Part shown: positions 20,365 to 60,054 of the stretch, piece by piece | How the letters are laid out: the number at the start of each line of letters is the position of its first letter | How positions within the stretch are numbered: the stretch's first letter is position 1 | Source of the DNA: a bacterium | GTDB taxonomy: Bacteria; Hinthialibacterota; Hinthialibacteria; H5-UNCL2 | Direction: 5' to 3' | NCBI GenBank assembly: GCA_015075175.1 | Contig: JABTUV010000003.1 | Coordinates: 62,001 to 126,000 of the forward strand | Length of the DNA: 64,000 nt | Notes under the pieces: generated by a model | Seen by the model: only the letters and a program-made list of their open reading frames with translations | What the model was told of the DNA's origin: nothing | The model's database searches: none | Translations under genes and position numbers: made by a program

Positions 20365-20628
20365 GCAAGATTAAGAGCAAGATTAAGAGCAAGATTAAGA
20401 GCAAGATTAAGAGGATTAAGAGCAAGATTCAGCAAGATTAAGAGCAAGATTAAGAGCAAGATTAAGAGATTAAGAAGATTAAGAGCAAGATTAAGATTAA
20501 GAGCAAGATTAAGAGCAAGATTAAGAGCAAGATTAAGAGCAAGATTAAGAGCAAGATTAAGAGCAAGATTAAGAGCAAGATTAAGAGCAAGATTAAGAGC
20601 AAGATTAAGATTAAGATTAAGATTAAGA
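20365..20628. repeat. 12-bp minisatellite AGCAAGATTAAG
   Basis: About 264 bp of a near-perfect direct tandem array with unit AGCAAGATTAAG (about 20 units). It is broken in the middle by shorter AGGATTAAG, AAGATTAAG and AGATTAAG pieces and ends in four GATTAA hexamers. It is almost free of C on the top strand and AT-rich, in strong contrast to the surrounding GC-rich DNA. It fills the gap between the NtrC-type gene and the secreted GH67-like gene, ending 34 bp before that gene's start codon. Translated frames (KIKS or LNLA repeats) have no start or ribosome site of their own and are not genes. Confidence 0.95.
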
Positions 20629-28540: not shown

Positions 28541-28650
28541 CAGCGGACAACATTTGGCTTTTACGAGGACGGCGAAATTAGTAGAATAGATGTTTCCGTC
28601 CCTGCAGCATGCCGGCGGCGGCCGTGTCGGCAATTCCGGGAGGCTCGCTC

Positions 28651-31600
28651 TTGAATCGGTTCCTCGCATCGTTTGCGCACGTCCTGACGCTATCCTTCAT
28701 CGTCGCCGGTGCTCCCATCTCATGGTCGGCGCCGCCCTCGATCGCGGGAACCGTCCGCAACTCGACCGGCCAGGCGCTCTCAAGCGCCTACGTGGTCGCG
28801 TACCGCGGCGGCGCCTACCAGACCTATGCCTACACCGACGGCTCGGGAAGCTACAGCTTCTCCAGCCTTCCCGAAGGCACGTACACGCTGCGGGTCAGCC
28901 ACAGTCCCTACCTGGGACAGTACTACGGCGGCAGCGTGTTCGAGGATGGAGCGACTCAACTGGCGCTGGGCGCAACCACGGAACTGTCGGGCATCGACGT
29001 GGTCCTGCCCGACGGGGACTGGGTGCAGGGCCACGTGTATGACGATCACGGCCAACCGCTCGCTTCCGCCGCGGTTTACGCACAAGCGGTCGGCAACGAT
29101 CCGTACTTCTACTGGTATCCTTACGCCTACACGGACACCTCGGGTTATTACCGCATTTACGGGCTGCCCGCCGGCAGTTGTGTTCTGCAGGCGGAATCCG
29201 CCCCCCACCTGCCGCTCTACTACGGCGACGCCTACAAGGTTGAGGACGCCTCGGTGCTGGCCTTGTCGGGCGGTTCGCACCTGTCCGGCGTCGATTTTCA
29301 TCTGCCGCTGGGGGCGCGGTTCCAAGTCGCGGTCTACGACAAGAACGACGGCCTGCCGCTGCATGATCCCGGCCAAAGCGTCCTGACCGACTGGATAGTC
29401 AACGCCCTCATCAGCGATCCGACCGGGCCGGTGTGGGTGGGCACGGACGGCGGTGTGACGGGTTTCGTCTCAGGGGCGACGATGGGACTGCACGCCTGGA
29501 ACGCGGGCCTGCCCAACGCGCCGGTGCGCGCGCTGGCGCGCTCCAGCGACGGCTCCCTGTACGTGGGAACCGACAACGGCCTGGCCGTCTATCGCACCTG
29601 GGGCACGACCATCTACACGACGACCAACTCGGCGCTGCCCCATAATCAAGTCACCGCGCTGGCGGCCTCGGCTACCGGGCCGGTCTGGATCGGCCTGGCC
29701 AACGGCACGTTGGCGCGCCTTTCGGCTGGAACCTTCACCAGTTGGACCGCGGCCACCCGCGGACTACCCGGACCCTCGCCCATCACCTGCCTGGCCATCG
29801 ATCCCGCCGGCGTGGTGTGGATGGGTTGCGCGGACGGCGCGCAGCGTTACGCGGGCGGCGCCTCCTTTCCCCGTACCACGACCTCGAATTCGGCTCTGCC
29901 CAGCAACGCCGTTCAAGCCATCGCCTGTGCGACCGACGGTTACCAGTGGATCGGAACCGACAGCGGCCTTCTGCGCACCAACCTCTCCAGCGAGATGGTC
30001 TTTCACAGCGGCAGCGGTCTTCCCACCAGCGACGTCCGCTCGATTTCGCCGGCCCACCACCGCGACGTGTGGGTGGGAACCAGCTACGGCATGGCGCGCA
30101 TCCTCAACGAGGCCGTCACCGCAACCTATACGACCGGGAATTCCTCGTTCCATCAAGGCGCGGTGAATGCGGTGCTGGCGCGGGGAGCCATCTACGCGGG
30201 CGGCGGGTCCGGACTGGACATTTTCCAGAATGGGGTTTTCATCCAGATTCCCGCGCCGCAGCGATACGTGCAGGTGCGCGCGCAGATGGTGGCGCCCGAG
30301 TTTCAGAACTTCTACAACGGCGTGTACTCGACCATTCTGGGCGAGGTCAATTCGCTGCCGGGCGGAGAATACCAGGTGCAGGTGACCAGCGCCGACTACG
30401 CCGAACAGTGGTACGCGATGAAACCGTCGGTGGCGCAGGCGGACGTGCTCTCCGTGGCGCTGGGCGAGACCTATCCCCAAGTGCTGGTGTTCGCGATGGA
30501 AATGGCAGGCTCCATCAGCGGGACGGTGCAGGACGCCTCGGGCAATCCCATCACCTTCGGCACGGCGCGGGCCGTCCCGGCTGGCGACGACTCCCTCAGT
30601 TATGCGGGCGGCATCGGCGGCGGCGGCGCCTACTTCATCGACGGCGTCCCGCCCGGAGACTACTACGTGTACGCGCAGGTCTCAGGTTATCCGCCGGGCT
30701 TTTACGGCGGCGGCTTCAATCGCTCGGCGGCTTCGACCGTGCACGTCACGAGCGGACAGGACACGCCCAACGTCGATATCGTCGTCACGCAGAACTTCCA
30801 GAACGGCAGCGTGGCGGGGCGCGTGCTGGACGCGATGGGCCACCCCTTCGTGAACGTGAGCGTGTCTATCCAGGGCCGGGACGGCACGGTTCACTCGGGC
30901 TACGCGACGACGGACGGAGCGGGCGCGTACAAGTTCACATCCGTGCCGCCGGGCACGCACCGGATTTATGCCGAGCTCAATTCGCGGCCTACGCTGTACT
31001 ATCCCGGCACGTACCGTTCGAGCCAGGCGGGCCACGTGGACGTGAACAGCGGCCAGCATCGCGTGGGCGTGGACCTGGTGGCGCCGGACAGCCCGCGCGC
31101 CACCGTGGAGGGGGTGGTCACGAGCGGCGGCGGCCAACCCGTGGCCGGCGCCGCGGTCATGCTCGCCGCCGGCGTTACCTACCAGGCCGTCACTTCGGCG
31201 ACCGGCTTCTACCGCATCTCCAACGCCTGGCCCAGCGACGACTATTATTTCCTGGTCACGCACCCTGATTATCTGCCCCACTCGCAGGACTTCGCGCTTG
31301 CGCCTGGTCAGACGTTGACGAGAAACGTCAACCTGGGCGCGGCCATTCCGGCGGAGACGAAACTGCTCGGGATAGTCCGCGACGCTTCCGGCAACCGCCT
31401 CTGGAGCGCGCAGATTTATGCGACCGTCAACAACTCCATCAATTTGCCGGCGGTGTACACGGAGTGGGACGGTTATTACGAGTACGACCCGATCGCGCCG
31501 GCGCCCACCACATTGAGCGTGTACCATTCAAATCTCGTTTCGCAGCACATCGACCTCACCCCCCTTGCCGGGGCGACGACGATAAGGGACATTACGCTGG

Positions 31601-34600
31601 CCTACAACCTGGCGGGATACGGGGCCATCTGGGGGCACGTGTACGACGCCTCGGGCCGTCCGCAACCCGGCTTGCAAGTGCGCCTGTCGGGCGCCGGTTC
31701 ACGGAACGTTTACACCAACGAGGACGGCGTGTACGTCGCCGCGGGACTCTCTCCCGGAACCTGGACGGTGGAGGTCACGTCGCTGGGCCAGCCGTATCCG
31801 AAGGTCACGGGCATCGTCGTTGCGTCGGGCCTGGTGCTGGGCGACGTGGACGTTACCGTGCCGATTCCGTTGGGGCAAATCCGTGGGACGGTGCGCAGCC
31901 AAGGCGGCGTGCCGCTGCCCAATCCAGTCGCAGACGAGAATCCCATCAATCACTCCAAGACGGCCGCCTACCGCTATTCCGACAGCCGGGGACGCTACGC
32001 GCTGTGCGGATTGCGGGCCGGCTTGTACCGCGTGTCCGCCGCGGCGGAAGGGTACGCGCGGCAGTATTACGACCATGCCGAGACGAGCGACGCCGCCACG
32101 TTGCTGTTTGTGGGCCAGAGCCAGGTCCTGACCGGCATCGACTTTTCGCTGCCGGACGCCGTCTGGGTACGCGGCCGGGTGACGACCGCGTGGGGCGAGC
32201 CTCTCGCTGACGTCAACCTGGAGGCGAATTCCCCCGACCTGCAGCGCTGGTTGGGCGATGCCTGGACGGACACGCAGGGATACTACAATCTGTACGTCCA
32301 GGAGGCGGGCGACTTCGTCGTGTCGGCCCAGTACGACGGCTACGCCTTCCAGTATTACAACCAGCGTCCGGTGTTTGATGCTCCGGACGTGCTTTCGGCG
32401 ACCTACGGCGCGGTCGTCGAGCCGGTGGACTTCATGCTGGCGCGTTCGTGCGTCATTTCCGGGACGGTTGTGAACGCATCCAACGAGCCTTACAACTGCG
32501 GTTACGTTTACGTCTATAACCTGTCCAACCTGGAGGACTCCTGGTTCGCCAACAGCATCGACAGCCAGGGGCGGTTCACCGTCTGGGGTATGCCGCCGGG
32601 CGTGTACGCTCTGCGCGCCAACGTCTGCGGCAAGACACCGGTGTTTCTGGCCGGCGCCTACAACGTGGCTGACGCCAGCCTTTTGACCCTGAATGAGGGA
32701 GATATCCTCTCGGGGGTGCGCATCGAGGTCCCGGAAGCCGTCGCGAGTGCCAGCATTTCCGGACGCATTACTCGGGCGGGCGGCGCTCCCGTCGCTTACG
32801 CCTTCGTGCAACTCTACGGCGTGGACGGCACTTCCTACAATTCCGGCACCTCTGCCGGCTCGGATGGACGCTATTCGTTTTCCAGTCTTCCGCCGGGGGT
32901 GTATGCGGTCGCCTACGTGAGGGACGACCAGCCGCCGTACTACTACGGCGCGACTTACTCGCAGGCCGCCGCCACGCGCGTGGCGCTGGGTCCCGGCGAG
33001 AACGCCGAGAACATCGACATCGAGGAGTCTGCTTTCACCGATTTTGCCATGCTCTCTGGGGTCGTGCGCGACGACCTCGGCCAACCGCTGGAGGGGGCGC
33101 AGGTGAGCCTCTACGACACGTGGTACAACCACACGGCCTATTCGCGTCCCGACGGCGGTTTTGCCTTTTACGATTTGCATCCGGCGCTGGGTTCGCTGGT
33201 CCTGTTTGCGCAGAAGGCGGGCTACCGCGAGGCGATGGTCAGCGGAATTGCGCCGACGCCCAACACCTCGCTCGTGCAGGACGTGACGCTGGTCCAATTG
33301 ACCGGTTTCGGCGTCTCAGGCACGGTCTACAACGCGTCGGGCAGTCCCCTTTCGGGCGCACTGGTCCAAGTCACGGGCATCGACAATGCCCACGCATTCT
33401 TGACTTACAGCGATCCCTTCGGCGTCTACGCACTGGGGCCTGTTCCCGCAGGGCTTTATCGCCTGCAGGCTTCGCTCTCCGGCTATGACAACGCGCTGCT
33501 GGACTGGCAGAACATCACCGCGGACCGGCAGTGGAATCCCGTACTGGCGACGCCGGCCGCCGCCGGCGCGGTCGCCGGCGTCGTCACCGACGCTTCGGGT
33601 TGGCCCGCGTACGGCATCACCGTGCGCAGCCAGGGACCCACCACCCGCCAGACCACCACGGACGACTTGGGGCGCTACCTCCTGCCCAACCTCTCCGCCG
33701 GCAGCTATCGCATCTATCTCAGCCAGGAGGCCGACTCGGGTTATCCCGAACAGAACGGCGTGCCGGTGGTCGTCGGCCAGCTGACGGACGGCGTGGATTT
33801 CACTGTCGGCGTTCACTACGGCACGATTTCGGGGCGCATCGCGGACGCGACGGGCATGGGCATTCAAAGCGCGCAGATTTCCACCACTCCGGTCGGGCAC
33901 AACTGGTATCCGCCCACCGTTTACAGTGGACTGGAGGGACATTTCAAAGTGGGGCGCGCGCGCGCCGGAGCGGAGCGCAACTATCGCTTGTACGCCAACC
34001 TGGCGGGTTACGTGCCGGTTTACTACGTCGATTCCCTGACCTCGTCAGGAGCCGCCGTCGTCAGCCTGCCCGCGAGTACGGATGTTTCCGGCATCGACTT
34101 CGCGCTACAGGCGGGCGCGACCGTCGCGGGCCGCGTGGTCGACCGGCTGGGGCGCGGCGTTTATGGGACGAGCCTCTCCTTCTACCGGCGCGAGGAGCCG
34201 CGCGTGATCCTTTATGCCGGCAGCGACAGCCAGGGGGACTACCGCGTCACTACGCTGCCGCCGGGTTCCTACGAGGTTTACGCCTCGCATTCCAGTTACG
34301 TGGACGAGTACTACGACGACAAGCTGGCGGCGGCGGACGCCGATCTCGTGGTGGTGGCTGCGGGAGAGCGGCGCGACGACATCGACTTCATGCTCATCCG
34401 CGGCGGCGCCCTGGCCGGCCAGGTTGTTGATGCCTCCGGCAATCCGGTCACGTCGGGGACCGTGTATGCGCTCTCGGCCGACCCCAATACCCCTTACGAA
34501 GTCTCGACGTCGCTCAACAACCAAGGTGAGTGGAGCTTCGCGGCGTTGCCGCCGGTGGCGTACTATCTCTATGCAAAGGTCAGCGGGCGGCCGGTCATCT

Positions 34601-37600
34601 TTTATCCCGCCAACTACAGCCGCAACTCGGCGACCATCGTCTCCGTGTCCGACGAGCAGAGCGTCAGCGGACTGGTGATCACGGTCCCGACCGAATCGGT
34701 CCCGGGCGGCACCATCGCGGGGCGCGTCTTCCGCCCGGACCACTTCCCCTATCCCAACCTGTCGGTGCGCATCTACGGCGCCGATGGAACCACGGGATCG
34801 TACAGTTACACGACCAACACGAGCGGCGAGTACTTGTCGAGCGCGCTGCCGGCGGGTTCCTACATCGTGGGCGCCATCGTTTCCAATCAGGCTCCCTATT
34901 ACCACGGCGGCACGTACTCGGCGGCGGCCGCGACGCGCGTCGAGGTCGCCCCCGACTCCAGCGTGGCGGGCGTCGACGTCACCCTGCCGGCCGTCAACCA
35001 TGCCCGACTCTCCGGTACGGTGAGAGACAATCACGGCCGGCCCGTGCCGCAGGCGGTCGTTTACGCCTACTCGCAGGATGGTTGGAGCAGCTACAGCGCC
35101 AACAGCGACGGGGACGGCCTCTGGCACATCGAGATGGTCTTTCCCTCGGGTGAATATTCCGTCTATGCGCAGAAGGCGTCGTACTTGACCTCGCCATCGC
35201 TGATCGTCGACGTGACGCCGGGCGCGGACATTGCCGGGTTGGACCTGGTGCTCGTGGGATTCGCCCCCGCCATGGTACGCGGGCAGGTCAACAGCCCCAA
35301 CGGCACCCCCATCTACAACGCCTACGTGTCGGCCGTGCTGGCAGGCGGCGGCTTCAACACCTATGCGTATACGGACCTGTACGGCAGCTTTGTCATGCGC
35401 GACCTGCCGCCGGGCAGCTACACCTTTGCGACCGGTCCCTCGGGCTACAGCTCGCTGTCCCTGCCGGGCGTGATGATCGCGCCGGGGACCGGCAATGAAG
35501 TCATCCTGACGCCGCAGTACGCCACGGGAGGCATCGTCTCCGGTCGCGTCAGGGACGCCTCGGGCGCGCCCGCCGTGCACGTTTACGTTCGCACCGGCAA
35601 CGGCACGACCCGCACGACTTATACCGACGGCGCCGGCCGCTACACGTTGGGGGGAGTCTCGACCAACACGACCATCATCCGGTTGAGCGATGAACCGGGT
35701 ACGCCCGAAGTGACGGGGATTACCGTGGCGGACGGCTCGCACACGGCGGGGATCAACTTTGACCTGGCCACGACCTACGGGACCATAGAGGGCGACGTGT
35801 ACGATGCGACGGGCGAACTGATACGCGGCCTTTTGTCGATTCGCGGCGAGCCGGTGTCCGGCGGGTCCAACACCGAATCCGTTCCCTCCGGCAGTGACGG
35901 TCACTATCTGATCGGGCGCGTGCCGGTGGGGGCCGGCAAAACGTATCGCGTGCGGGCCAGCGGCGCACCTTACCCGACCCGCTATTATGCAGACGGCTAC
36001 GTGGCGCGCGAGGCGCTGCCGGTCGGCATGGAGCCCGGCGACCATCGCGCGGGCATCGACTTCGTCATGGTCGACGGCGCGGCCCTCCACGGCAGAGTGC
36101 GCGATGGAGACGGCGACCCGCTGGAGGCCGTCTCGGTGCGCGCCCGCTGGTTCTACGGACCCGACGTCACTAATTTCAACGGCACTACCGACAACAACGG
36201 CGACTATCGCATCACCGGCCTTCCGCCGGGCGAATATACGCTCCGCTTCATGCACTCCGAGCACTTGACGGAGTACTACAACAACGTATTTCAGGAGAGC
36301 CTGGCGACCAGAATACCCGTGGCGACGGGAGAGACGCAGCGTCTTGACGCCCAGTTGACGCGCGGCGGCTCCATCGCCGGCACGGTCCGCAATACGACCG
36401 GCGATCTGGTCGGCGCCGGCGACGTGTCCGTCGAGCGCGTCTCGGACGGCCTGGACTTCTACGCAACGGTCGAGCCGAACGGAACCTACCGCGTGCCTGG
36501 CCTGCCGGGCGGCCACTACGTTGTGTACCTCAGCAGCCTCGGCTACGTGCCGCAGTACTACAACGGCGCGACTACGTGGGAAGCGGCCGCGCGCATCGCC
36601 GTCGTTACGGGACAGGCGACTGCCGGCGTCGACTTCGTGTTGATTACCGAGTCCAGCATCTCCGGCCACGTCAGGAAGGGCATCGGCGATCCGGTGACGT
36701 CGGGCACGGTTCGCGCCTACCGCTCCGATGGGACCTTCGTCACGAGCACGAGCCTCTCCGCCCAAGGCGCTTACACGCTGCGGGGACTGGCAGCGGGAAG
36801 CTATCGCGTGCGCGTCTCCGCCTCCGGTTATCTGGACCATTACTGGCAATACTCGGCGACTCTGGCGGGCGCGACCGACATCGTCGTGCCCACGGCTACG
36901 GCCCTGACGGGTTATGATTTCATCCTCTTGTCCGGCGGCACGCTCTCCGGCACGGTCAAGAACGAAAACGGCGATCCGTACCCCAGCGGTACGGTCTACC
37001 TCGCGCAGACCTGGTCTCCACTGAGCGACTTGCGCAGCACGTCGCTGACGAGCAGCGGCGAGTTCACGTTCAGCGCGGTCTGGCCGGACACGTACTACGT
37101 GTACACGTCGCTCTCCGGCAAGCCCCGCATTTACTATCCCTCGTCCTACTCGGTCGGCGCGGCTTCGCCGGTCCTGGTCAACGAAGGGGCGGCCACCACG
37201 GGCATCCACATCGTGGCGCCCTCGTCCATCGCCTCGGGAACGGTCGCGGGGACGGTGAAATTCGCGGACGGCACGCCCGTCTCGGACAACGTGCCGAACA
37301 TCGGCGTGGACGGTTACTCGGGCACGCACAGCACCAATACGGACGTGTACACGGGCGCCTTCCTGCGCAGCGGCATCACTCCGGGAACCTACATCGTGCG
37401 CGTGAACCGGAGCAACACGCCTTCGTATTACCATCACGGCACGTTTGTGAGCGGCCAGGCGACGCGGCTGGTGCTCCTGCCCAATCAGTCGCTGGACAAC
37501 GTCGCCGTGGTCTTCCCCGACGAACCGGCGATGGAAACCGGTCTCCGGCGTGGTAGAGGATCAGGCCAGCCAGCCGATCGCCGGCGCGCGCGTGTGGTTG

Positions 37601-39435
37601 TCGCGCAGTCCAACGCGTACCTGGAGGTTCCCTCGCAGCCGGACGGCGTTTACCTTCCGTCGGTTTATCCCGCCCAGGGTTACACGCTGGGTGCGTACCT
37701 GGACGCTCAGGTGGATGCGCCGCTGCAGTTAGTCAACGTCGCGCCGGGACAGGCCGTGAGCGGGCGCGTGCTCACCATGACGCGCTACGCGATCGGCGCC
37801 CTGGCCGGTTGGATCACGGGACCCGCCGGCACGCCCATCGGCAATACGTCGGTCAATTTGCAGATACAGGGTACCAGTCAGTACTTCTACGCCACGACCC
37901 ATCTGGATGGCTATTACTTCTTCGCTACCGTGCCCGCCGTGCCGTGTCGGATCACGTGCTACCCCTCCGGCTACGCGGGATTGGACGTCTCGGGGTTGAC
38001 CGTGCCGGCCGGGGGAACGCTGGTTCGCAACTTCAACCTGGCGTATGCCGCCGGAGGGGTCGTCGCGGGCACGGTGCGCGACGCCTCCAATCTGCCCGTG
38101 GCGGGAGTCCGCGTGCTTTCGACCAACGGTACGGGTCGCACGGGTTACACCGGCGTGGACGGGCGCTACGCGCTGGCGGGCCTGTCGGCGGGGAGCGACT
38201 ATCGCATCTACCTGCCGGATGAACCCGGCGTGCCGGAAGCGACGGGCGTCGCTGTGGTCGCCGACGCGACCACGGCGGGCGTCGATTTTGCGCTCTCGGT
38301 GCCTTACGGGCGCATCACCGGCGCGGTGCGCGATGCGACCGGCCAACCGCTCGGCAACGTCGAGGTGGACGGCACGAGCCTCTCCGGCACGCCCAAGCCG
38401 GCGGACGCTTCCTCGCGCCACGACGGAAGCTACTCCATGCTGCGCGTGCGGCGGGACGCCGGGGCGCAATACCGACTCTTCGCCCGCGACGGCGTTCACG
38501 TGCGGCAATACTGGAATCACGTGCTCACGCAGGCGGCGGCCTCGCCGGTTTCGATTCCGGGTTCGGGGCTTCTGTCCGGCATCGATTTCGATTTGGCGCC
38601 GGGCGCCAGTCTGGAGGGCCGGGTGATCGACGCGACCGGCGCGCCGCTCGCCTACGCGGACCTGCGCGCCGACCATGCCGGCGATCTCGGCCAGTTCACG
38701 ACCAGCGCGGACCTGGCCGGCTTCTTCACCCTTGCCGCCCTGCCCGCGGGCCAGTACACGTTGCGCGCGCAGAAGGCCGGTTATCGCGTCGAATACTGGG
38801 ACGACCAGGTGCGCGCTGCTGACGCCACGCTGATTTCCCTTTCCACCGGCGAAAGCCGGGACGGCTTCGCGGTCACGTTGGACGACGGCGGATTCATCGC
38901 TGGCACGGTGCGCAACACCACGGGCGAGCCGCTCTTTTACGCCAACGTGTACACGCAGAATCCGCAGAATACGGAAGGCTCCAGCAGCGCGTTCAGCAAC
39001 CTCGCCGGCGGTTATCGCCTGACCGGGCTGCCGGCGGACCGCTATCGCGTGCGCGCCAGCCGCAACGGCTATCTGGATGCCATGGTTGACCACGTCAACG
39101 TGACGGAAGGCCAGACGACCGCGCTCGACCTCGTGATGTTCGCGGTAGGACAGCCGACGTGGACGCCCACGCCCACGCCGACCGGCTCGACTACGCCCAC
39201 GTACACGCCGACGGCGACGCGCACGCCTACGCCGACGATGACAAACACGCCTACCGTCACGAACACACCGAGGCCGCTGGACATCCGCCCCGACGGGCAG
39301 GTCAACGCGCTGGACGTGCTGGAGTTCTGCCGCAACTGGAACGCGGTTCCGGGCGGTCCATCCGACCTGAACGGCGACGGCATCGTGGACGGCGCTGACC
39401 TGCTGATCTTCTTGGAGACGTGGGAGAGCCGCTGA
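28651..39435 (+). CDS. Giant secreted multi-repeat protein: carboxypeptidase-regulatory-like units, beta-propeller, dockerin-like end
   Basis: About 3,594 codons. TTG 28651, with GGGAGG 7 bp upstream, gives a clean signal peptide NRFLASFAHVLTLSFIVAGA; an ATG at 28609 would add 14 residues. About 33 units of 85-100 aa follow the pattern G.V.D..G.P..., TD..G.Y.F..LPPG.Y.V, YY.G, G(V/I)D, as in carboxypeptidase-regulatory-like (Cna-B/transthyretin) folds. Units 1-2 are followed by a seven-blade propeller (29340-30240; WVGTDGG and WIGTDSG blades), then units 3-33. The end is a Pro-Thr linker (39157-39275) and two EF-like loops, DIRPDGQVNALD and DLNGDGIVDGAD, like a type I dockerin. Unit 28 carries a compensated frameshift (37541 to about 37605). 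Probably a surface adhesin or scaffold. Confidence 0.9.
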   Translation: MNRFLASFAHVLTLSFIVAGAPISWSAPPSIAGTVRNSTGQALSSAYVVAYRGGAYQTYAYTDGSGSYSFSSLPEGTYTLRVSHSPYLGQYYGGSVFEDGATQLALGATTELSGIDVVLPDGDWVQGHVYDDHGQPLASAAVYAQAVGNDPYFYWYPYAYTDTSGYYRIYGLPAGSCVLQAESAPHLPLYYGDAYKVEDASVLALSGGSHLSGVDFHLPLGARFQVAVYDKNDGLPLHDPGQSVLTDWIVNALISDPTGPVWVGTDGGVTGFVSGATMGLHAWNAGLPNAPVRALARSSDGSLYVGTDNGLAVYRTWGTTIYTTTNSALPHNQVTALAASATGPVWIGLANGTLARLSAGTFTSWTAATRGLPGPSPITCLAIDPAGVVWMGCADGAQRYAGGASFPRTTTSNSALPSNAVQAIACATDGYQWIGTDSGLLRTNLSSEMVFHSGSGLPTSDVRSISPAHHRDVWVGTSYGMARILNEAVTATYTTGNSSFHQGAVNAVLARGAIYAGGGSGLDIFQNGVFIQIPAPQRYVQVRAQMVAPEFQNFYNGVYSTILGEVNSLPGGEYQVQVTSADYAEQWYAMKPSVAQADVLSVALGETYPQVLVFAMEMAGSISGTVQDASGNPITFGTARAVPAGDDSLSYAGGIGGGGAYFIDGVPPGDYYVYAQVSGYPPGFYGGGFNRSAASTVHVTSGQDTPNVDIVVTQNFQNGSVAGRVLDAMGHPFVNVSVSIQGRDGTVHSGYATTDGAGAYKFTSVPPGTHRIYAELNSRPTLYYPGTYRSSQAGHVDVNSGQHRVGVDLVAPDSPRATVEGVVTSGGGQPVAGAAVMLAAGVTYQAVTSATGFYRISNAWPSDDYYFLVTHPDYLPHSQDFALAPGQTLTRNVNLGAAIPAETKLLGIVRDASGNRLWSAQIYATVNNSINLPAVYTEWDGYYEYDPIAPAPTTLSVYHSNLVSQHIDLTPLAGATTIRDITLAYNLAGYGAIWGHVYDASGRPQPGLQVRLSGAGSRNVYTNEDGVYVAAGLSPGTWTVEVTSLGQPYPKVTGIVVASGLVLGDVDVTVPIPLGQIRGTVRSQGGVPLPNPVADENPINHSKTAAYRYSDSRGRYALCGLRAGLYRVSAAAEGYARQYYDHAETSDAATLLFVGQSQVLTGIDFSLPDAVWVRGRVTTAWGEPLADVNLEANSPDLQRWLGDAWTDTQGYYNLYVQEAGDFVVSAQYDGYAFQYYNQRPVFDAPDVLSATYGAVVEPVDFMLARSCVISGTVVNASNEPYNCGYVYVYNLSNLEDSWFANSIDSQGRFTVWGMPPGVYALRANVCGKTPVFLAGAYNVADASLLTLNEGDILSGVRIEVPEAVASASISGRITRAGGAPVAYAFVQLYGVDGTSYNSGTSAGSDGRYSFSSLPPGVYAVAYVRDDQPPYYYGATYSQAAATRVALGPGENAENIDIEESAFTDFAMLSGVVRDDLGQPLEGAQVSLYDTWYNHTAYSRPDGGFAFYDLHPALGSLVLFAQKAGYREAMVSGIAPTPNTSLVQDVTLVQLTGFGVSGTVYNASGSPLSGALVQVTGIDNAHAFLTYSDPFGVYALGPVPAGLYRLQASLSGYDNALLDWQNITADRQWNPVLATPAAAGAVAGVVTDASGWPAYGITVRSQGPTTRQTTTDDLGRYLLPNLSAGSYRIYLSQEADSGYPEQNGVPVVVGQLTDGVDFTVGVHYGTISGRIADATGMGIQSAQISTTPVGHNWYPPTVYSGLEGHFKVGRARAGAERNYRLYANLAGYVPVYYVDSLTSSGAAVVSLPASTDVSGIDFALQAGATVAGRVVDRLGRGVYGTSLSFYRREEPRVILYAGSDSQGDYRVTTLPPGSYEVYASHSSYVDEYYDDKLAAADADLVVVAAGERRDDIDFMLIRGGALAGQVVDASGNPVTSGTVYALSADPNTPYEVSTSLNNQGEWSFAALPPVAYYLYAKVSGRPVIFYPANYSRNSATIVSVSDEQSVSGLVITVPTESVPGGTIAGRVFRPDHFPYPNLSVRIYGADGTTGSYSYTTNTSGEYLSSALPAGSYIVGAIVSNQAPYYHGGTYSAAAATRVEVAPDSSVAGVDVTLPAVNHARLSGTVRDNHGRPVPQAVVYAYSQDGWSSYSANSDGDGLWHIEMVFPSGEYSVYAQKASYLTSPSLIVDVTPGADIAGLDLVLVGFAPAMVRGQVNSPNGTPIYNAYVSAVLAGGGFNTYAYTDLYGSFVMRDLPPGSYTFATGPSGYSSLSLPGVMIAPGTGNEVILTPQYATGGIVSGRVRDASGAPAVHVYVRTGNGTTRTTYTDGAGRYTLGGVSTNTTIIRLSDEPGTPEVTGITVADGSHTAGINFDLATTYGTIEGDVYDATGELIRGLLSIRGEPVSGGSNTESVPSGSDGHYLIGRVPVGAGKTYRVRASGAPYPTRYYADGYVAREALPVGMEPGDHRAGIDFVMVDGAALHGRVRDGDGDPLEAVSVRARWFYGPDVTNFNGTTDNNGDYRITGLPPGEYTLRFMHSEHLTEYYNNVFQESLATRIPVATGETQRLDAQLTRGGSIAGTVRNTTGDLVGAGDVSVERVSDGLDFYATVEPNGTYRVPGLPGGHYVVYLSSLGYVPQYYNGATTWEAAARIAVVTGQATAGVDFVLITESSISGHVRKGIGDPVTSGTVRAYRSDGTFVTSTSLSAQGAYTLRGLAAGSYRVRVSASGYLDHYWQYSATLAGATDIVVPTATALTGYDFILLSGGTLSGTVKNENGDPYPSGTVYLAQTWSPLSDLRSTSLTSSGEFTFSAVWPDTYYVYTSLSGKPRIYYPSSYSVGAASPVLVNEGAATTGIHIVAPSSIASGTVAGTVKFADGTPVSDNVPNIGVDGYSGTHSTNTDVYTGAFLRSGITPGTYIVRVNRSNTPSYYHHGTFVSGQATRLVLLPNQSLDNVAVVFPDEPAMETGLRRGRGSGQPADRRRARVVVAQSNAYLEVPSQPDGVYLPSVYPAQGYTLGAYLDAQVDAPLQLVNVAPGQAVSGRVLTMTRYAIGALAGWITGPAGTPIGNTSVNLQIQGTSQYFYATTHLDGYYFFATVPAVPCRITCYPSGYAGLDVSGLTVPAGGTLVRNFNLAYAAGGVVAGTVRDASNLPVAGVRVLSTNGTGRTGYTGVDGRYALAGLSAGSDYRIYLPDEPGVPEATGVAVVADATTAGVDFALSVPYGRITGAVRDATGQPLGNVEVDGTSLSGTPKPADASSRHDGSYSMLRVRRDAGAQYRLFARDGVHVRQYWNHVLTQAAASPVSIPGSGLLSGIDFDLAPGASLEGRVIDATGAPLAYADLRADHAGDLGQFTTSADLAGFFTLAALPAGQYTLRAQKAGYRVEYWDDQVRAADATLISLSTGESRDGFAVTLDDGGFIAGTVRNTTGEPLFYANVYTQNPQNTEGSSSAFSNLAGGYRLTGLPADRYRVRASRNGYLDAMVDHVNVTEGQTTALDLVMFAVGQPTWTPTPTPTGSTTPTYTPTATRTPTPTMTNTPTVTNTPRPLDIRPDGQVNALDVLEFCRNWNAVPGGPSDLNGDGIVDGADLLIFLETWESR

Positions 39436-39762
39436 GTCGCGGCCTCTTCTCCCCCCGCCGTAACAAGGGGGGCTGGGGGGATTGATGGCGAGGGACAGGC
39501 GCCGATTCTGAAGCGGGAGCCCAAGCTCATTGCGGGCTGGACGCGCCCAATCGGTCACTGTCCCACGCGCCCATCGCGTTGCAAGGTTGCCATCGCCGCG
39601 TGACCGTGTTAGGTTAAGAGCTGCAGAGCCCAACGCGGCAGCGCCGTCGCGCGGTAGCGGGACCCGACAGACGCCTCACGCGGCAATCTCTCGTCCGTTT
39701 CGTCCTCTTCCGACCTCCTCGGCTGCCGGTTGCGGCGACAGGCGGAATCCGAGGATGCGAAC
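39436..39762. other. Gap after the giant gene
   Basis: 327 bp. CCCCCCGCCGTAACAAGGGG and GGCTGGGGGGATT at 39450-39484 form a repeat hairpin (related to 27590 and 62237) and may terminate the giant transcript. I see no gene and no convincing promoter in the remainder. Confidence 0.6.
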
Positions 39763-40449
39763 ATGTCTCTACCAGCTCGGGACTCGGGCGGCGACCAACC
39801 CTTTGCGGTCAAGGACTGCGCGCTGGCCGCGATCGCGACCGGCCGCCGGGCGCACACGCTGCGGGAGCTCTACGACGGTGTCTCGGCGACCACCCCGAGC
39901 AGTCTTTATTATCACTTCTGGGGCGGCCTCCTGCGCCCGCGTTTCGACGATCCCGAGTACAACAACGATTTCGCCGTCTGGGCCTTTCGCGATTTTCACG
40001 ACGAAACCCTGGCGGAGCGATTGTCGGTGATCGATCCCACCGACTATACCGACATGGAGGAGTTGCGGCAGGAGGTTCTGGACACGCTGGAGGAGCGGCT
40101 GGACGAGGACCCCGTGGTTTCCTGGAAGCGCGCCGAAAGCGCCTTCACCTTCATCCGCTCGCAGATCGTGGTACTCGACACGCATACCACCATCACGCAT
40201 CCGCGGGAGATGCCGGAGATCGTGTCGGCCATGTCGCTGGGCAGCGTGTTTTACCATTTCATCGACGCGCGGAGGCGGCCGCCCATCGGGATCAATGATT
40301 TTTCGGCGTGGATCGTCGGGGCGTTTCCCGAGCACACGCCGTTGGCGGAGCGCCTGGCCCACCTGGACCCTTACTTCAACAGGTTGGCGGGCCTGCGCCG
40401 CCAGCTGGCCGGCGTCCTGGCCGATTACTTCGGGGAGGCGGCGTCATGA
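39763..40449 (+). CDS. Uncharacterised protein of the trehalose operon (DUF5752-like)
   Basis: 228 aa, cytoplasmic and helical. The conserved-looking stretches are HTLRELYDGVSATTPSSLYY, HFWGGLLRPRFDDPEYNNDF and AVWAFRDFHDETLAERLSVI. A second partial copy of the same layout follows: SVFYHFIDARRRPPIGINDF and SAWIVGAFPEHTPLAERLAH. The protein therefore seems to be an internal duplication (YHFW...NDFA.W then YHFI...NDFSAW). It resembles a family of unknown function found next to trehalose synthase genes. Its stop overlaps the treT start (ATGA). It may regulate or assist TreT. Confidence 0.65.
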   Translation: MSLPARDSGGDQPFAVKDCALAAIATGRRAHTLRELYDGVSATTPSSLYYHFWGGLLRPRFDDPEYNNDFAVWAFRDFHDETLAERLSVIDPTDYTDMEELRQEVLDTLEERLDEDPVVSWKRAESAFTFIRSQIVVLDTHTTITHPREMPEIVSAMSLGSVFYHFIDARRRPPIGINDFSAWIVGAFPEHTPLAERLAHLDPYFNRLAGLRRQLAGVLADYFGEAAS

Positions 40450-41687
40450 GCGCGACGCTGGCTCGCTATCAGGACATCGTGGGCGCCGATGTCGTCTCGC
40501 ATCTGCGGCAGCTGGCCGCGCCGCTCGCGGGCATGAAGGTCGTGCACGTCAACTCGACCCGCACCGGCGGCGGCGTGGCGGAAATCCTCCACATGTTGGT
40601 ACCCCTCAAGGTGGAGCTGGGCCTGGATGCGCGCTGGGAAGTGATTACCGGCGATAGCCTCTTCTATCAGTGCACCAAGGGCTTTCACAACGCGCTGCAA
40701 GGGACCGCGGTGGAAATCACGCCCGCCATGATCGCGGCTTATGAAGAGACCAATCGAAAGAACGCCGAGACGCTGCGGGAAGTGCTGCAGGAGGCGGACC
40801 TGGTGTTCATTCACGATCCACAGCCTGCGCCGCTCCTGGGGCTTTGCCCCACCCGCCGCGGCAAGTGGGTCTGGCGCTGCCACATCGACGTCAGCCATCC
40901 CTTCCGGCCCGTCTGGAAGTACCTGCGACGGCACGTGGCGGCCTACGACGCTTCGATCTTTTCGCTGGCCTCTTTCGCCCAGCCCCTGCCGCATCCCGAG
41001 TACCTGATTCCGCCCAGCATCGACCCGCTGACGGAAAAGAACATGGACCTGCCCGAGGACGAGATCCGGCAGGTCGAGGAGCGCTTCGGCATCGATCCCG
41101 AGCGGCCCATGATCCTGCAAGTGTCGCGTTTCGACCGCTTCAAGGATCCCGTGGGCGTGATCCAGGCGTACCGCATGGCCAAGCGTTACATTCCACGGTT
41201 GCAGTTGGTGCTGGCGGGAGGGGGCGCCTCGGACGATCCCGAGGGCGAGGTGGTGCTGGCGGAGGTACGCGCGGCGGCCGGCGACGATCCAGACGCTCAC
41301 GTGCTGCTCCTGCCGCCCGATGCGCATCGCACCATCAACGCCCTGCAGCGCGCCGCCGATCTGGTCCTGCAGAAGTCCTTGCGCGAGGGTTTCGGCCTCA
41401 CCGTCACCGAGGCCATGTGGAAGAGCAAGCCGGTCGTCGGCGGCAACACCGGCGGCATTCGCCTGCAGGTCGTCAATCATCATACCGGGTTTCTGGTCAA
41501 CACGCCGGAGGGCGCGGCCCAGCGCGTGCGTTATCTCCTGTCGGACCGCGATCGGCGCGTCAAGATGGGCGAGAAGGCGCGCGAGTTCGTGCGAGAGAAC
41601 TTTCTTCTAACCCGCCACCTGCGCGAGTATCTGACGGTGATGCTGGCCATCGTGCGCGGCGTGGACGATCGTATCGAGGTGGCGTGA
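40446..41687 (+). CDS. treT: Trehalose synthase of GT4 type (TreT)
   Basis: Retaining GT-B enzyme that joins NDP-glucose and glucose to trehalose (reversible). 413 aa. VHVNSTRTGGGVAEILHMLV is the signature N-terminal loop. WRCHIDVSHP, FSLASFAQPLPHPEYLIPPS, VSRFDRFKDPVGVIQAY (hinge and donor site) and LREGFGLTVTEAMWKSKPVV (with the E-x7-E pair) follow. The start overlaps the preceding stop (ATGA). It sits in an operon with otsB and otsA, so the cell has both the TreT and the OtsAB route. The gap to otsB carries two repeat elements. Confidence 0.88.
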   Translation: MSATLARYQDIVGADVVSHLRQLAAPLAGMKVVHVNSTRTGGGVAEILHMLVPLKVELGLDARWEVITGDSLFYQCTKGFHNALQGTAVEITPAMIAAYEETNRKNAETLREVLQEADLVFIHDPQPAPLLGLCPTRRGKWVWRCHIDVSHPFRPVWKYLRRHVAAYDASIFSLASFAQPLPHPEYLIPPSIDPLTEKNMDLPEDEIRQVEERFGIDPERPMILQVSRFDRFKDPVGVIQAYRMAKRYIPRLQLVLAGGGASDDPEGEVVLAEVRAAAGDDPDAHVLLLPPDAHRTINALQRAADLVLQKSLREGFGLTVTEAMWKSKPVVGGNTGGIRLQVVNHHTGFLVNTPEGAAQRVRYLLSDRDRRVKMGEKAREFVRENFLLTRHLREYLTVMLAIVRGVDDRIEVA

Positions 41688-41709
41688 TGACGCGTAATCT
41701 TAATCGTAG

Positions 41710-41799
41710 CTGTCATTTCGACCGAAGGGAGAAATCTTCTGCATCGCACCCGCCACGCGGTAACAGCGAAGAGGATTTCTCCCTTCGGTCGAAATGACA
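41710..41799. repeat. CTGTCATTTCGACC palindromic element, copy 2
   Basis: Same 27-bp arms as the copy at 16666, with a different loop (CTGCATCGCACC...). It sits inside the trehalose operon between treT and otsB. Confidence 0.9.
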
Positions 41800-41850
41800 T
41801 CTTTATCCGTACGAGTATGATTGCGAATTACCAGCACGAGCACGTTGACG

Positions 41851-41870
41851 AATCGTAATCGATTACGATT
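41851..41870. repeat. 20-bp perfect palindrome before otsB
   Basis: AATCGTAATCGATTACGATT is its own reverse complement. It is followed by further ATTACG/ATTGCG units up to 41885 and ends about 20 bp before the otsB ATG. AT-rich in a GC-rich region. Could be a regulator site or an intergenic repeat. Confidence 0.6.
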
Positions 41871-41892
41871 ACGATTGCGAATCGAGGTAGAT

Positions 41893-42708
41893 ATGAAGGA
41901 ACTGCAACGCGAAGGCGTTCTGGCTGCGTTCATGCGGCGCCTTGGCGAGGTGGGGCGGGGCGTGCTGCTCTTGGATTACGACGGGACGCTGGCCCCCTTC
42001 CGGCCCGAGCGGGACGCCGCGCACATGTATGCCGGCGTGCGCGAGGCGCTGTCGTCGATGATCAGCGGCGGCGGCACGCGGGTGGTCGTGATCAGCGGGC
42101 GGCCGGCGAGCGCGCTCCTGCCGCTTTTGGGACTTGCGCCCGCGCCGGAAATATGGGGATGCCACGGCGCCGAGCGGCTCCATCCCAACGGACGCTATGA
42201 GCTCATGCCGCTGGACGAAGCGGCTGTCGCCGGGCTGTCGCAGGCGACCGCCTTTCTCATGGATAACGGACTCCAGCGGCATTGCGAGCCTAAGCCGGCG
42301 GGCGTGGCTCTGCACACGCGCGGCTTGCCCGATGATGAAGAGAAGCGTGTGACCGGTCTCGTGGCGCCGGTATGGCGGGAGATAGCCTCACGCGCCGGCC
42401 TTTCGTTGCGCTCGTTTGACGGCGGCCACGAGCTGCGCGTCCCGGGCGTGGACAAGGGGCGCGTGGTCGAGCAGATCCTGGCCGAGTGTGCGCCGGATGA
42501 GCCGGTCGCCTTTCTCGGCGATGACTTGACCGACGAGGACGCTTTTGCCGCACTCTCCGGGCGCGGCCTCTCCGTCCTGGTGCGAACCGAGCCGCGTCCC
42601 ACCGCCGCCGAAGTGTGGCTCGTGCCGCCCAAGGAATTGCTGGCCTTTTTCACCGATTGGAGCCACAGCCTGGCACGCAGCCGGCGGCTTGGAACGGAGC
42701 TCGGATGA
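41893..42708 (+). CDS. otsB: Trehalose-6-phosphate phosphatase
   Basis: HAD-superfamily phosphatase that removes phosphate from trehalose 6-phosphate. 271 aa. Motif I LLLDYDGTLAPF (nucleophile and acid Asp), motif II VVISGRPA, cap domain with GCHGAERLHPNG, KPAGVALHTRG, SFDGGHELRVPGVDKG and motif IV FLGDDLTDEDAF. ATG 41893 is chosen because the upstream frame runs through repeats. The stop overlaps the otsA start by ATGA, so the two enzymes of the pathway are translationally coupled. Confidence 0.93.
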   Translation: MKELQREGVLAAFMRRLGEVGRGVLLLDYDGTLAPFRPERDAAHMYAGVREALSSMISGGGTRVVVISGRPASALLPLLGLAPAPEIWGCHGAERLHPNGRYELMPLDEAAVAGLSQATAFLMDNGLQRHCEPKPAGVALHTRGLPDDEEKRVTGLVAPVWREIASRAGLSLRSFDGGHELRVPGVDKGRVVEQILAECAPDEPVAFLGDDLTDEDAFAALSGRGLSVLVRTEPRPTAAEVWLVPPKELLAFFTDWSHSLARSRRLGTELG

Positions 42709-44210
42709 ATCCCGAGGCCAATCCCAGTCGTCTCTTGATCATTTCCAACCGCCTGCCCGTCGTGGTCGCCCGCGATGAGCATGGCGACTGGGAGGTCGAG
42801 TCGGGTTCGGGCGGCCTGGTGACCGCACTGGCCCCGGTCCTGCGCCACCGCGGCGGCGTTTGGATCGGCTGGGCCGGCGCGCCCGAAATCCCCGAGGAAG
42901 AACTGGAGCGCCTCTTGGCCGCCCGCAGCCGGCCTCTGGGTTACACCATGAAGCCGGTGACGCTCTCGGACGAGGACGTGGAGGAGTTCTACTACGGCTT
43001 CGCCAACGAGATCGTCTGGCCGCTCTTTCACGACCTGCCTTCGCGCTGCAACTTCGAGCCGGCGTACTGGAGCGGCTATCGCCGCGTCAACGAGAAGTTC
43101 ACGCGCGTGATTCTCGCCAACCGTGAGGAGAACGACTTCATCTGGGTCCACGATTATCATCTCTTTCACGTGGCCGAGGAGCTGCGCAGGTCGGGCGTGT
43201 CGGGAAAGATCGGCTTTTTCCTGCACATTCCCTTTCCGCCGCTGGACCTTTTTCTCAAGCTGCCGTGGCGCTTTCAGGTTCTGCACGCGCTCCTGGCCTA
43301 TGATCTCTTGGGATTTCAGACCGTGCGGGATCGGCGCAATTTCCTGCAATGCGTGCGACTGCTCCTTTCGGACGTGGCGGTCGAGACACGCGGGTCGATG
43401 GTGTTCCTGAGGCGCAAGGGCGCCGAGGTGCGCGTGGGCGTCTTTCCCATCAGCATCGACTTCGCCGAGTTCGCCAACCAGGCGGCCAGCCCGGAGGTCG
43501 CGGAGCGCGCCTGGTACATCCATGAGCACCTGCCCAATACGCAAATTCTTTTGGGCGTGGACCGACTGGACTACACCAAGGGCATCCCCGAGCGGCTGCG
43601 GGCGTTCCGCGACGCCCTGCGGCGCTATCCCGAGCTGCATGAGCGCATCGTCTTCATGCAGGTCGTCGTGCCCAGCCGCGCCCGGCTGAAGCGCTACCAG
43701 GACCTCAAGCTGGACATCGAACGGCTGGTCTCGCAGATTAACGGCGAGTTCACGCGCTCCGGCTGGGTCCCCATTCACTACGTTTTTCGCCCGTTGGAAC
43801 GCGCCGAGCTGCTCGCTTACTATCGCACCGCCGAGATCGCCATCGTCACGCCGTTGAAGGACGGCATGAACCTGGTTGCCAAGGAATATTGCGCGGCCAG
43901 CCTGGAGACGGGAGTTTTGATCTTGTCCGAGTTCGCGGGCGCGGCGGCGCAGATGCAGAAGAGCGCGCTCCTGGTCAATCCCAACGACATCACGGGCATG
44001 GCCGACGCGATCTACCGGGCGTTCACGATGGACCGCGCCGAGCGGATGGCGCGGATGCGCCGCCTGCGGGCGACGGTCAAGCGCCAGGACATTTACGACT
44101 GGGTCAATTCGTTCCTGTCGGCGGCCATCGCCCGCAAACTGGACAACTTCCCGGTCCTGCCGGACTACCTGCCTCAGATGGAGTACGAGCCGCACTCCAA
44201 TGCCGATTGA
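42705..44210 (+). CDS. otsA: Trehalose-6-phosphate synthase
   Basis: GT20 enzyme making trehalose 6-phosphate from NDP-glucose and glucose 6-phosphate. 501 aa. LIISNRLPVVV, SGGLVTALAPVL (phosphate loop), ANEIVWPLFHDL, VHDYHLFHVAEELR, GFFLHIPFPP, LLGVDRLDYTKGIPERL and PLKDGMNLVAKEYCAA are all present and in order. All family-defining contacts appear intact. It overlaps otsB by ATGA and ends the trehalose operon; a repeat cluster follows. Confidence 0.95.
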   Translation: MNPEANPSRLLIISNRLPVVVARDEHGDWEVESGSGGLVTALAPVLRHRGGVWIGWAGAPEIPEEELERLLAARSRPLGYTMKPVTLSDEDVEEFYYGFANEIVWPLFHDLPSRCNFEPAYWSGYRRVNEKFTRVILANREENDFIWVHDYHLFHVAEELRRSGVSGKIGFFLHIPFPPLDLFLKLPWRFQVLHALLAYDLLGFQTVRDRRNFLQCVRLLLSDVAVETRGSMVFLRRKGAEVRVGVFPISIDFAEFANQAASPEVAERAWYIHEHLPNTQILLGVDRLDYTKGIPERLRAFRDALRRYPELHERIVFMQVVVPSRARLKRYQDLKLDIERLVSQINGEFTRSGWVPIHYVFRPLERAELLAYYRTAEIAIVTPLKDGMNLVAKEYCAASLETGVLILSEFAGAAAQMQKSALLVNPNDITGMADAIYRAFTMDRAERMARMRRLRATVKRQDIYDWVNSFLSAAIARKLDNFPVLPDYLPQMEYEPHSNAD

Positions 44211-44819: not shown

Positions 44820-44846
44820 GGGTCGTATAGGTCCTATAGGTCCCAT
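44820..44846. repeat. GGGACCTATGGGAC-family repeat (copy 4)
   Basis: CATGGGTCGTATAGGTCC then TATAGGTCCCATT: inverted units of the family seen at 10868. It directly abuts a CCCTCACCC element. Confidence 0.7.
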
Positions 44847-44926
44847 TCCCCCTCACCCCGACCCTCTCCCCTTGGGAGAGGGAGCCATTCCCCCTCACCC
44901 CTGCCCTCTCCCGCTGGGAGAGGGAG
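44847..44926. repeat. CCCTCACCC-family repeat, tandem pair
   Basis: Two copies of CCCCCTCACCC..(A/G)CCCTCTCCC followed by the GGGAGAGGGAG hairpin, ending at the radical SAM stop codon on the other strand. Confidence 0.85.
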
Positions 44927-59316: not shown

Positions 59317-60054
59317 CGCCGCCGCCGCTGGGCAACTTTCCCTGCACCTGGCGCCCCGGGAGATCGGGGGACATTTCATCGTCGAGGGCGGCATGTACTG
59401 CGCCCACCAGGAGATGAAGAAGGGGTGCCAAAGGCCATCGACGCCTACAGCCGGCAACTGTCGATGAACTGCGGACCGTGCGCGTTTCATCTACAGCAGC
59501 AGTTGCCAGACCAGTCCCAACACGCCCATGGACAATATCTATTATTCCGCGAGGGCGCGTTCAACGCACGGCCGCCGCGACAACCGACTCTGCGCCCTCT
59601 CCTGAGGGGAGGTCGGCGCGCAGCGCGTTCTTCACCTCTCCCTGAGGGAGAGGTCGGCGCGCAGCGCCGGTGAGGACGTCGCCTGGAGCGCGCCGTATCG
59701 ATGCAGCGCGCCTCCTCAAATCCCTCACCCCAACCCTCCCCGTGGGGAGAGGGAACTGCACCTCCCCTGAGGGAGAGGTCGGCGCGAAGCGCCGGGTGAG
59801 GGGAAGGTCACCGCCGGCGCGCCGCATCGATGCAGCGCACTCTCCCAGCTCCCTCACCCCAACCCTCTCCCCAGGGGAGGGATCACCTCTCCTGAGAAGT
59901 GAAGAACGAATCCGCAACCGGTCAGACCGGGCGCGGGGCGGAAGATTTCTCCCGCGGTCGAAAATGACAACTTCACCCACGAGGTGAGATACGGTCGAAA
60001 TGATGATACAGAAAACCAGTGACGGTCGCACCGTTCCTCGTTAGGATGACCGGC
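59317..60054. other. Decayed URO-D 3' end followed by a repeat-only gap
   Basis: 59317-59570 is the shifted C-terminal part of the URO-D gene. From 59586 to 59895 the DNA is almost all CCCTCACCC-type hairpins. 59943-59969 is one arm of the CTGTCATTTCGACC element (GATTTCTCCCGCGGTCGAAA). No other gene is supported. Confidence 0.7.
59586..59895. repeat. CCCTCACCC-family repeat array
   Basis: At least five hairpins (CCTCTCCCTGAGGGAGAGG; CTCCCCTGAGGGAGAGG; CCCTCCCCGTGGGGAGAGGG; CCCTCTCCCCAGGGGAGGG) linked by GGTCGGCGCG(C/A)AGCGC. CGCCG(T/C)ATCGATGCAGCGC occurs twice (59690, 59821), so part of the array is itself a direct duplication. Confidence 0.85.

Follow-up and report, generated by a model that had tools for sequence, protein, structure and literature searches.

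The giant gene and its surroundings

The window, as the whole stretch of 64,000 nucleotides analysed here is called, holds a giant open reading frame, whose parts are listed in Table 1. In a Pfam search of its product, CarboxypepD_reg (PF13620) scores 898 bits over 27 stretches, above the curated cut-off, and when the units are cut by their conserved first strand, 33 are obtained, in agreement with a preliminary description of this DNA. Units are numbered along the protein, and those of the four seven-unit blocks are assigned ranks 3 to 9 after the units of block 1. Since frame +1 gives a normal start to unit 28, the break in the reading frame there would be due to two compensating frameshifts (indels) or to assembly errors. 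Membership in the Kustd1514 anammox S-layer glycoprotein family (NF052345) was considered and rejected, the score of 80 bits against a cut-off of 1400 bits representing generic repeat similarity.

Elsewhere in the window, a 12-bp unit (GCAAGATTAAGA), A-rich within a GC-rich region, stands in tandem in 22 copies at 20365-20628. Downstream of the giant gene (39730-44210), a DUF5752 gene is followed consecutively by genes for a TreT-type trehalose synthase and a GT20 glycosyltransferase, and intergenic-looking repeats of the CCCTCACCCCGACCCTCTCCC type lie at 44843-44926 and 59633-59879.

Table 1. Parts of the giant gene, in window positions. G007 is the genome of the relative described in the text.
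Feature	Position	Strand	Length	Remarks
Giant open reading frame	28609..39435	+	3608 aa	33 CarboxypepD_reg units, propeller, C-terminal dockerin, signal-like N-terminus
Units 1 and 2	28741..29307	+		Rank 8/9-like pair ahead of the propeller; same pair in G007
Putative unit U2b	29308-30507			Split by the propeller: strand ~29308-29361, rest 30262-30507
Reg_prop-type beta-propeller	29362..30261	+		Edges approximate; basis PF07494, near aa 300
Block 1 (units 3-9)	30508..32448	+	1941 bp	Block with the greatest divergence
Block 2 (units 10-16)	32449..34404	+	1956 bp	
Block 3 (units 17-23)	34405..36366	+	1962 bp	Modelled, mean pLDDT 87.8
Extra pair (units 24-25)	36367..36936	+		Both rank-9-like; not in G007
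Block 4 (units 26-32)	36937..38889	+	1953 bp	
Start of unit 28	37541..37602	+		Out of frame in the open reading frame
Unit 33 (last)	38896..39138	+	81 aa	Short, rank-5-like
Pro/Thr-rich linker	39139..39279	+		Read from the sequence
Dockerin type I domain	39280..39408	+		aa 3558-3600; two calcium-loop-like motifs; PF00404

A seven-unit super-repeat

In the preliminary description, it was proposed that the units do not form a simple tandem array but a seven-unit block present four times, with an extra pair between blocks 3 and 4. This super-repeat is confirmed: units 3-9, 10-16, 17-23, and 26-32 correspond rank for rank, and the block coordinates, the periods, and the position of the extra pair are as had been described (Table 1). 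Within the window protein, units of equal rank have a mean pair score of 99.5, compared with 61.7 for neighbours and 40.6 for units of different rank. The observed rank order scores 4180, which lies 10.8 sd above the result of 20,000 within-block permutations (2065 +/- 196; maximum 3123.5), and no cyclic shift of the blocks surpasses it. Autocorrelation of the units is highest at lag 7 (z 6.0), with additional peaks at lags 9, 16, and 23 (z 3.7, 3.6, and 3.4) because of the inserted pair U24-25; at lag 1, i.e., between neighbours, z is 1.9, and lags 2-5 fall below chance.

In a self-comparison of the protein, the offsets that stand out are 648-655, 842-844 (one block and two units), 1301, and 1496. 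The periodicity of 1.95 kb anticipated for the DNA is present as in-frame peaks at ~1941-1965 and 2526-2529 bp, but these are only faint. A tree of the units of this one genome bears out in part the expectation that equal ranks cluster across blocks: ranks 3 and 7 form one clade each, and rank 8 and rank 9 each hold together across blocks 2-4, but ranks 5 and 6 do not resolve. Clustering of neighbours, which had been named as evidence against a super-repeat, is seen for U05/U06 and U08/U09, on long branches; over the tree, there are 12 label changes, compared with 24.0 after shuffling.

A profile of the four blocks, searched against 41 genomes, has revealed the cassette in one other genome, on contig C598 of G007, which belongs to the same class but to another family. 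Four consecutive matches cover nearly the full profile, with distances of 1920, 1941, and 1944 bp between their starts; the fourth is cut by the contig end, and the protein, at least 3,105 aa long up to that end, follows the same plan of two units, propeller, and four seven-unit blocks. Its blocks are 28-36% identical to those of the window protein, its propeller aligns to the window propeller at 33%, and the unit lengths agree rank by rank in the two genomes (about 100/98/87/87/84/99/96). The G007 protein is without a counterpart of U24-25, and its units correlate at lags 7, 14, and 21 (z 10.8, 7.0, and 3.2). Rank HMMs built from the units of both genomes, the tested unit being left out, give the right rank to 54 of 55 units; when trained on one genome and tested on the other, they are correct in 27/28 and 26/27 cases. 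Unit length has an sd of 0.5-1.8 aa within a rank, compared with 6.2 overall (F = 115).

It could be postulated instead that single domains were added one at a time and that the periodicity arises from classes of length or composition. Long and short classes of unit do exist, and similarity at lag 1 is slightly greater than chance. However, the HMMs separate ranks 3, 4, 8, and 9, which are of the same length class, and lag 7 far exceeds lag 1. The rank classification and the permutation results refute this explanation, which is left with next to no probability.

Among the 14 genomes of the class that were searched, the cassette was found only in the window genome and G007. The matches from a contig search over a wider set of genomes were all to CarboxypepD_reg arrays of a generic kind; they come from Hydrogenedentota, Planctomycetota, Acidobacteria, Paenibacillus, and others, with 21-43% identity, and none of eight genomes with such arrays yielded a full-cassette match. 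Other arrays in the window's own genome and in G009 and G010 are without rank order, their rank scores being weak (at most 31.6 bits). A search of viral contigs with the giant protein gave no match, and a profile built from all eight blocks offered no part with enough conservation for such a search.

Anatomy and fold of the cassette

The cassette reads long-long-short-short-short-long-long. Ranks 3, 4, 8, and 9 are long (~93-101 aa) and have an insertion of about nine residues that includes an aromatic pair (YY or FY) and is missing from the short ranks 5, 6, and 7 (83-90 aa). A few positions are specific to a rank and almost invariant among its copies, e.g., E-Y-Y in rank 9, G-x-D-G in rank 4, and G16 and F64 in rank 3; for rank 5, none was found.

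It had been expected that structure prediction of one block would show a repeating shape. An AlphaFold model of block 3, made with eight sequences (mean pLDDT 87.8), is nearly all beta strand and does give a chain of beta-sandwiches, in which the aromatic-pair stretch of ranks 3, 8, and 9 includes a short helical turn; at a pTM of 0.59, however, the relative placement of the units is not trustworthy. Among the closest solved structures are CnaB domains, pilins, teneurin, and the transthyretin-like (TTL) domains of carboxypeptidases D and N. Although the whole 654-residue model was used, its matches are mostly to single domains at residues 197-375; the unit at residues 289-373 matches the TTL domain of human carboxypeptidase D with a Z of 13.3 and an rmsd of 1.4 over 80 residues. 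As modelled, the CarboxypepD_reg units have the transthyretin-like beta-sandwich fold.

Duplication history

There is strong support for growth of the array through successive tandem duplications, in frame, of a seven-domain cassette of ~650 aa (~2 kb) whose copies have diverged in sequence while keeping their length; the four-block plan of G007 confirms what had been proposed from the window alone. Because this plan is common to both genomes, the cassette is old. In a tree of the blocks of the window protein (W) and G007 (G), block 1 of both genomes is joined (99/98). Blocks 2-4 are not paired by position, W_B3 grouping with W_B4 (93/95) and G_B2 with G_B3 (89/93), and AU tests of like-position pairing reject it for block 3 (p 0.007) and marginally for block 4 (p 0.045), but not for block 2 (p 0.13). 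In each of the two genomes, the rank-8 units of blocks 2-4 carry an insert of three residues that block 1 lacks. The orthology of block 1 and this insert suggest that block 1 and blocks 2-4 had already diverged when the two lineages separated, so that the first duplication would be older than the split, and that blocks 2-4 were reshaped afterwards; they have probably been re-copied or homogenised, and the history is not one of simple fourfold copying.

The same data raise the question of whether the likeness in register stems from recent concerted evolution, by gene conversion or unequal crossover between blocks, rather than from old duplication. Such a process would fit the partial grouping of blocks 2-4 by genome and the rejection of W_B3 with G_B3. 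However, identity between the blocks of one genome is no more than 28-39%, their DNA similarity is almost gone, and block 1 is orthologous across the genomes at high support. Any homogenisation would consequently be old and partial, which makes recent concerted evolution an improbable explanation and leaves old duplication as the preferred one.

U1, U2, U24, U25, and the leading pair of G007 have rank 9 as their top rank HMM, or ranks 8 and 9 equally; for U24 and U25, this suggests derivation from the rank 8/9 part of the cassette.

Propeller, dockerin, and a model for the protein

In both genomes, a further unit, U2b, appears to be interrupted directly behind its first strand by the Reg_prop propeller. 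With the rank-9 HMM, U2b of the window protein scores 42.5 bits when joined, compared with 33.2 bits for the C-terminal part alone, but the gain in G007 is almost nil. The structure model of the propeller region is poor (pLDDT 53).

At the C-terminus, Dockerin_1 scores 21.5 bits in the whole-protein search, just below the cut-off of 22.9, and 27.6 bits, above the cut-off, in the genome search. A GC-type dockerin match is slightly below its own cut-off, and two D-rich loops can be recognised by inspection. The domain is known from the window protein, the C-terminus of the G007 protein lying beyond the contig end. In the same genome, there are 8 cohesin matches above cut-off and 35 dockerin matches, and cohesins are present in 14/14 genomes of the class. 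The linker and dockerin, together with these cohesins in the genome and across the class, suggest that the giant protein may dock to a cohesin-bearing surface protein. This arrangement of a C-terminal dockerin and cohesin proteins in one genome is like that of cellulosomes, but no catalytic module was found in the giant protein. Elsewhere in the genome, a cohesin pair (L088, G000:C1:748060-748836) is encoded in an open frame of 912 aa together with a CarboxypepD_reg unit (C1:749137), and a dockerin match lies just upstream (C1:746726); the product of this frame is a candidate scaffoldin-like protein.

By inspection, the N-terminus of the giant protein resembles a signal peptide, and the protein is probably exported. 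In NOMO, each fold contributes ~3.5 nm (PMC12262048), and at this value, the array would extend for ~115 nm and one cassette for ~25 nm. Taken together, these results have led to a model, held here at a probability of roughly 0.8, in which the giant protein is a long extracellular stalk, grown by cassette duplication on a plan shared with a distant relative, that displays the propeller. Export would proceed via the signal-like N-terminus, the C-terminal dockerin would be held by a cohesin-bearing surface protein, and the stalk would carry the N-terminal propeller to roughly 100 nm from the cell, where a partner or polysaccharide could be bound. The pattern of the cassettes would be mainly a record of copying, kept as the fold and linkers of each rank fit their neighbours, and less likely a ruler.

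The preliminary description went further and proposed a seven-domain structural period in the protein. A sequence period of four long and three short units is real, but a structural one can only be inferred, and U24-25 shifts block 4 out of register, which does not occur in G007. If the period were functional, it might provide a fixed axial repeat of ~25 nm, with rank-specific surfaces for the binding of a partner, as for titin super-repeats on the thick filament. Unit lengths that stay within ~1-2 aa for each rank across two genomes with ~30-35% identity, the constant order of four long and three short units, and the few rank-specific positions kept in almost every copy are all compatible with this idea. 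However, such positions are few, with zero in rank 5, and inherited beta-sandwich domains would be expected to keep their length without any selected period. Furthermore, the functional period is weakened because U24-25 moves block 4 by two units in the window protein but not in G007, and it is considered unlikely. That the cassette acts as a bacterial titin-like molecular ruler, setting a ~25 nm period on a cell-surface filament with rank-specific sites for partners, is likewise quite doubtful.

Comparison with known giant proteins

Growth by duplication of multi-domain units is already known from titin and nebulin. The D-zone of the titin A-band consists of six copies of a seven-domain unit (PMC10665226). 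Titin, like the giant protein, is a giant beta-sandwich chain with a multi-domain cassette copied in tandem, in which equal-rank domains are most alike in the best-kept zone and the outer copies are most diverged. However, titin alternates two fold families, Ig and FnIII, in an intracellular muscle filament, whereas the giant protein uses one domain family and is bacterial, probably exported, and without a known template filament. The modules of nebulin are short, bind actin, and have an unrelated fold. Nebulin nevertheless expanded mostly seven domains at a time (PMC1553488), as the giant protein did. In bacteria, BAP of Acinetobacter has an EFG module that occurs two or four times (PMC4647330). 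It is likewise a giant surface protein in which a multi-domain unit is repeated as a set, but its unit has three domains of other families and is present in few, strain-variable copies, whereas the cassette described here has seven domains and is common to two families of the class. Finally, NOMO has 12 Ig-like domains (PMC12262048). It too is an extended rod in which transthyretin-like domains are strung together, but it is a eukaryotic ER protein. To our knowledge, it has no seven-domain cassette.

A literature search found no paper linking "super-repeat" to carboxypeptidase regulatory-like domains; within the material searched, what is new is the use of this domain family, a bacterial cassette of this size, and the fact that it is conserved from one family to another. 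The giant protein thus provides a clear bacterial case of a cassette of seven domains that is shared by two families at ~30-35% identity with rank-specific lengths kept. It offers a natural test, outside muscle and without introns, of whether super-repeats are only a by-product of copying or are kept for a structural period.
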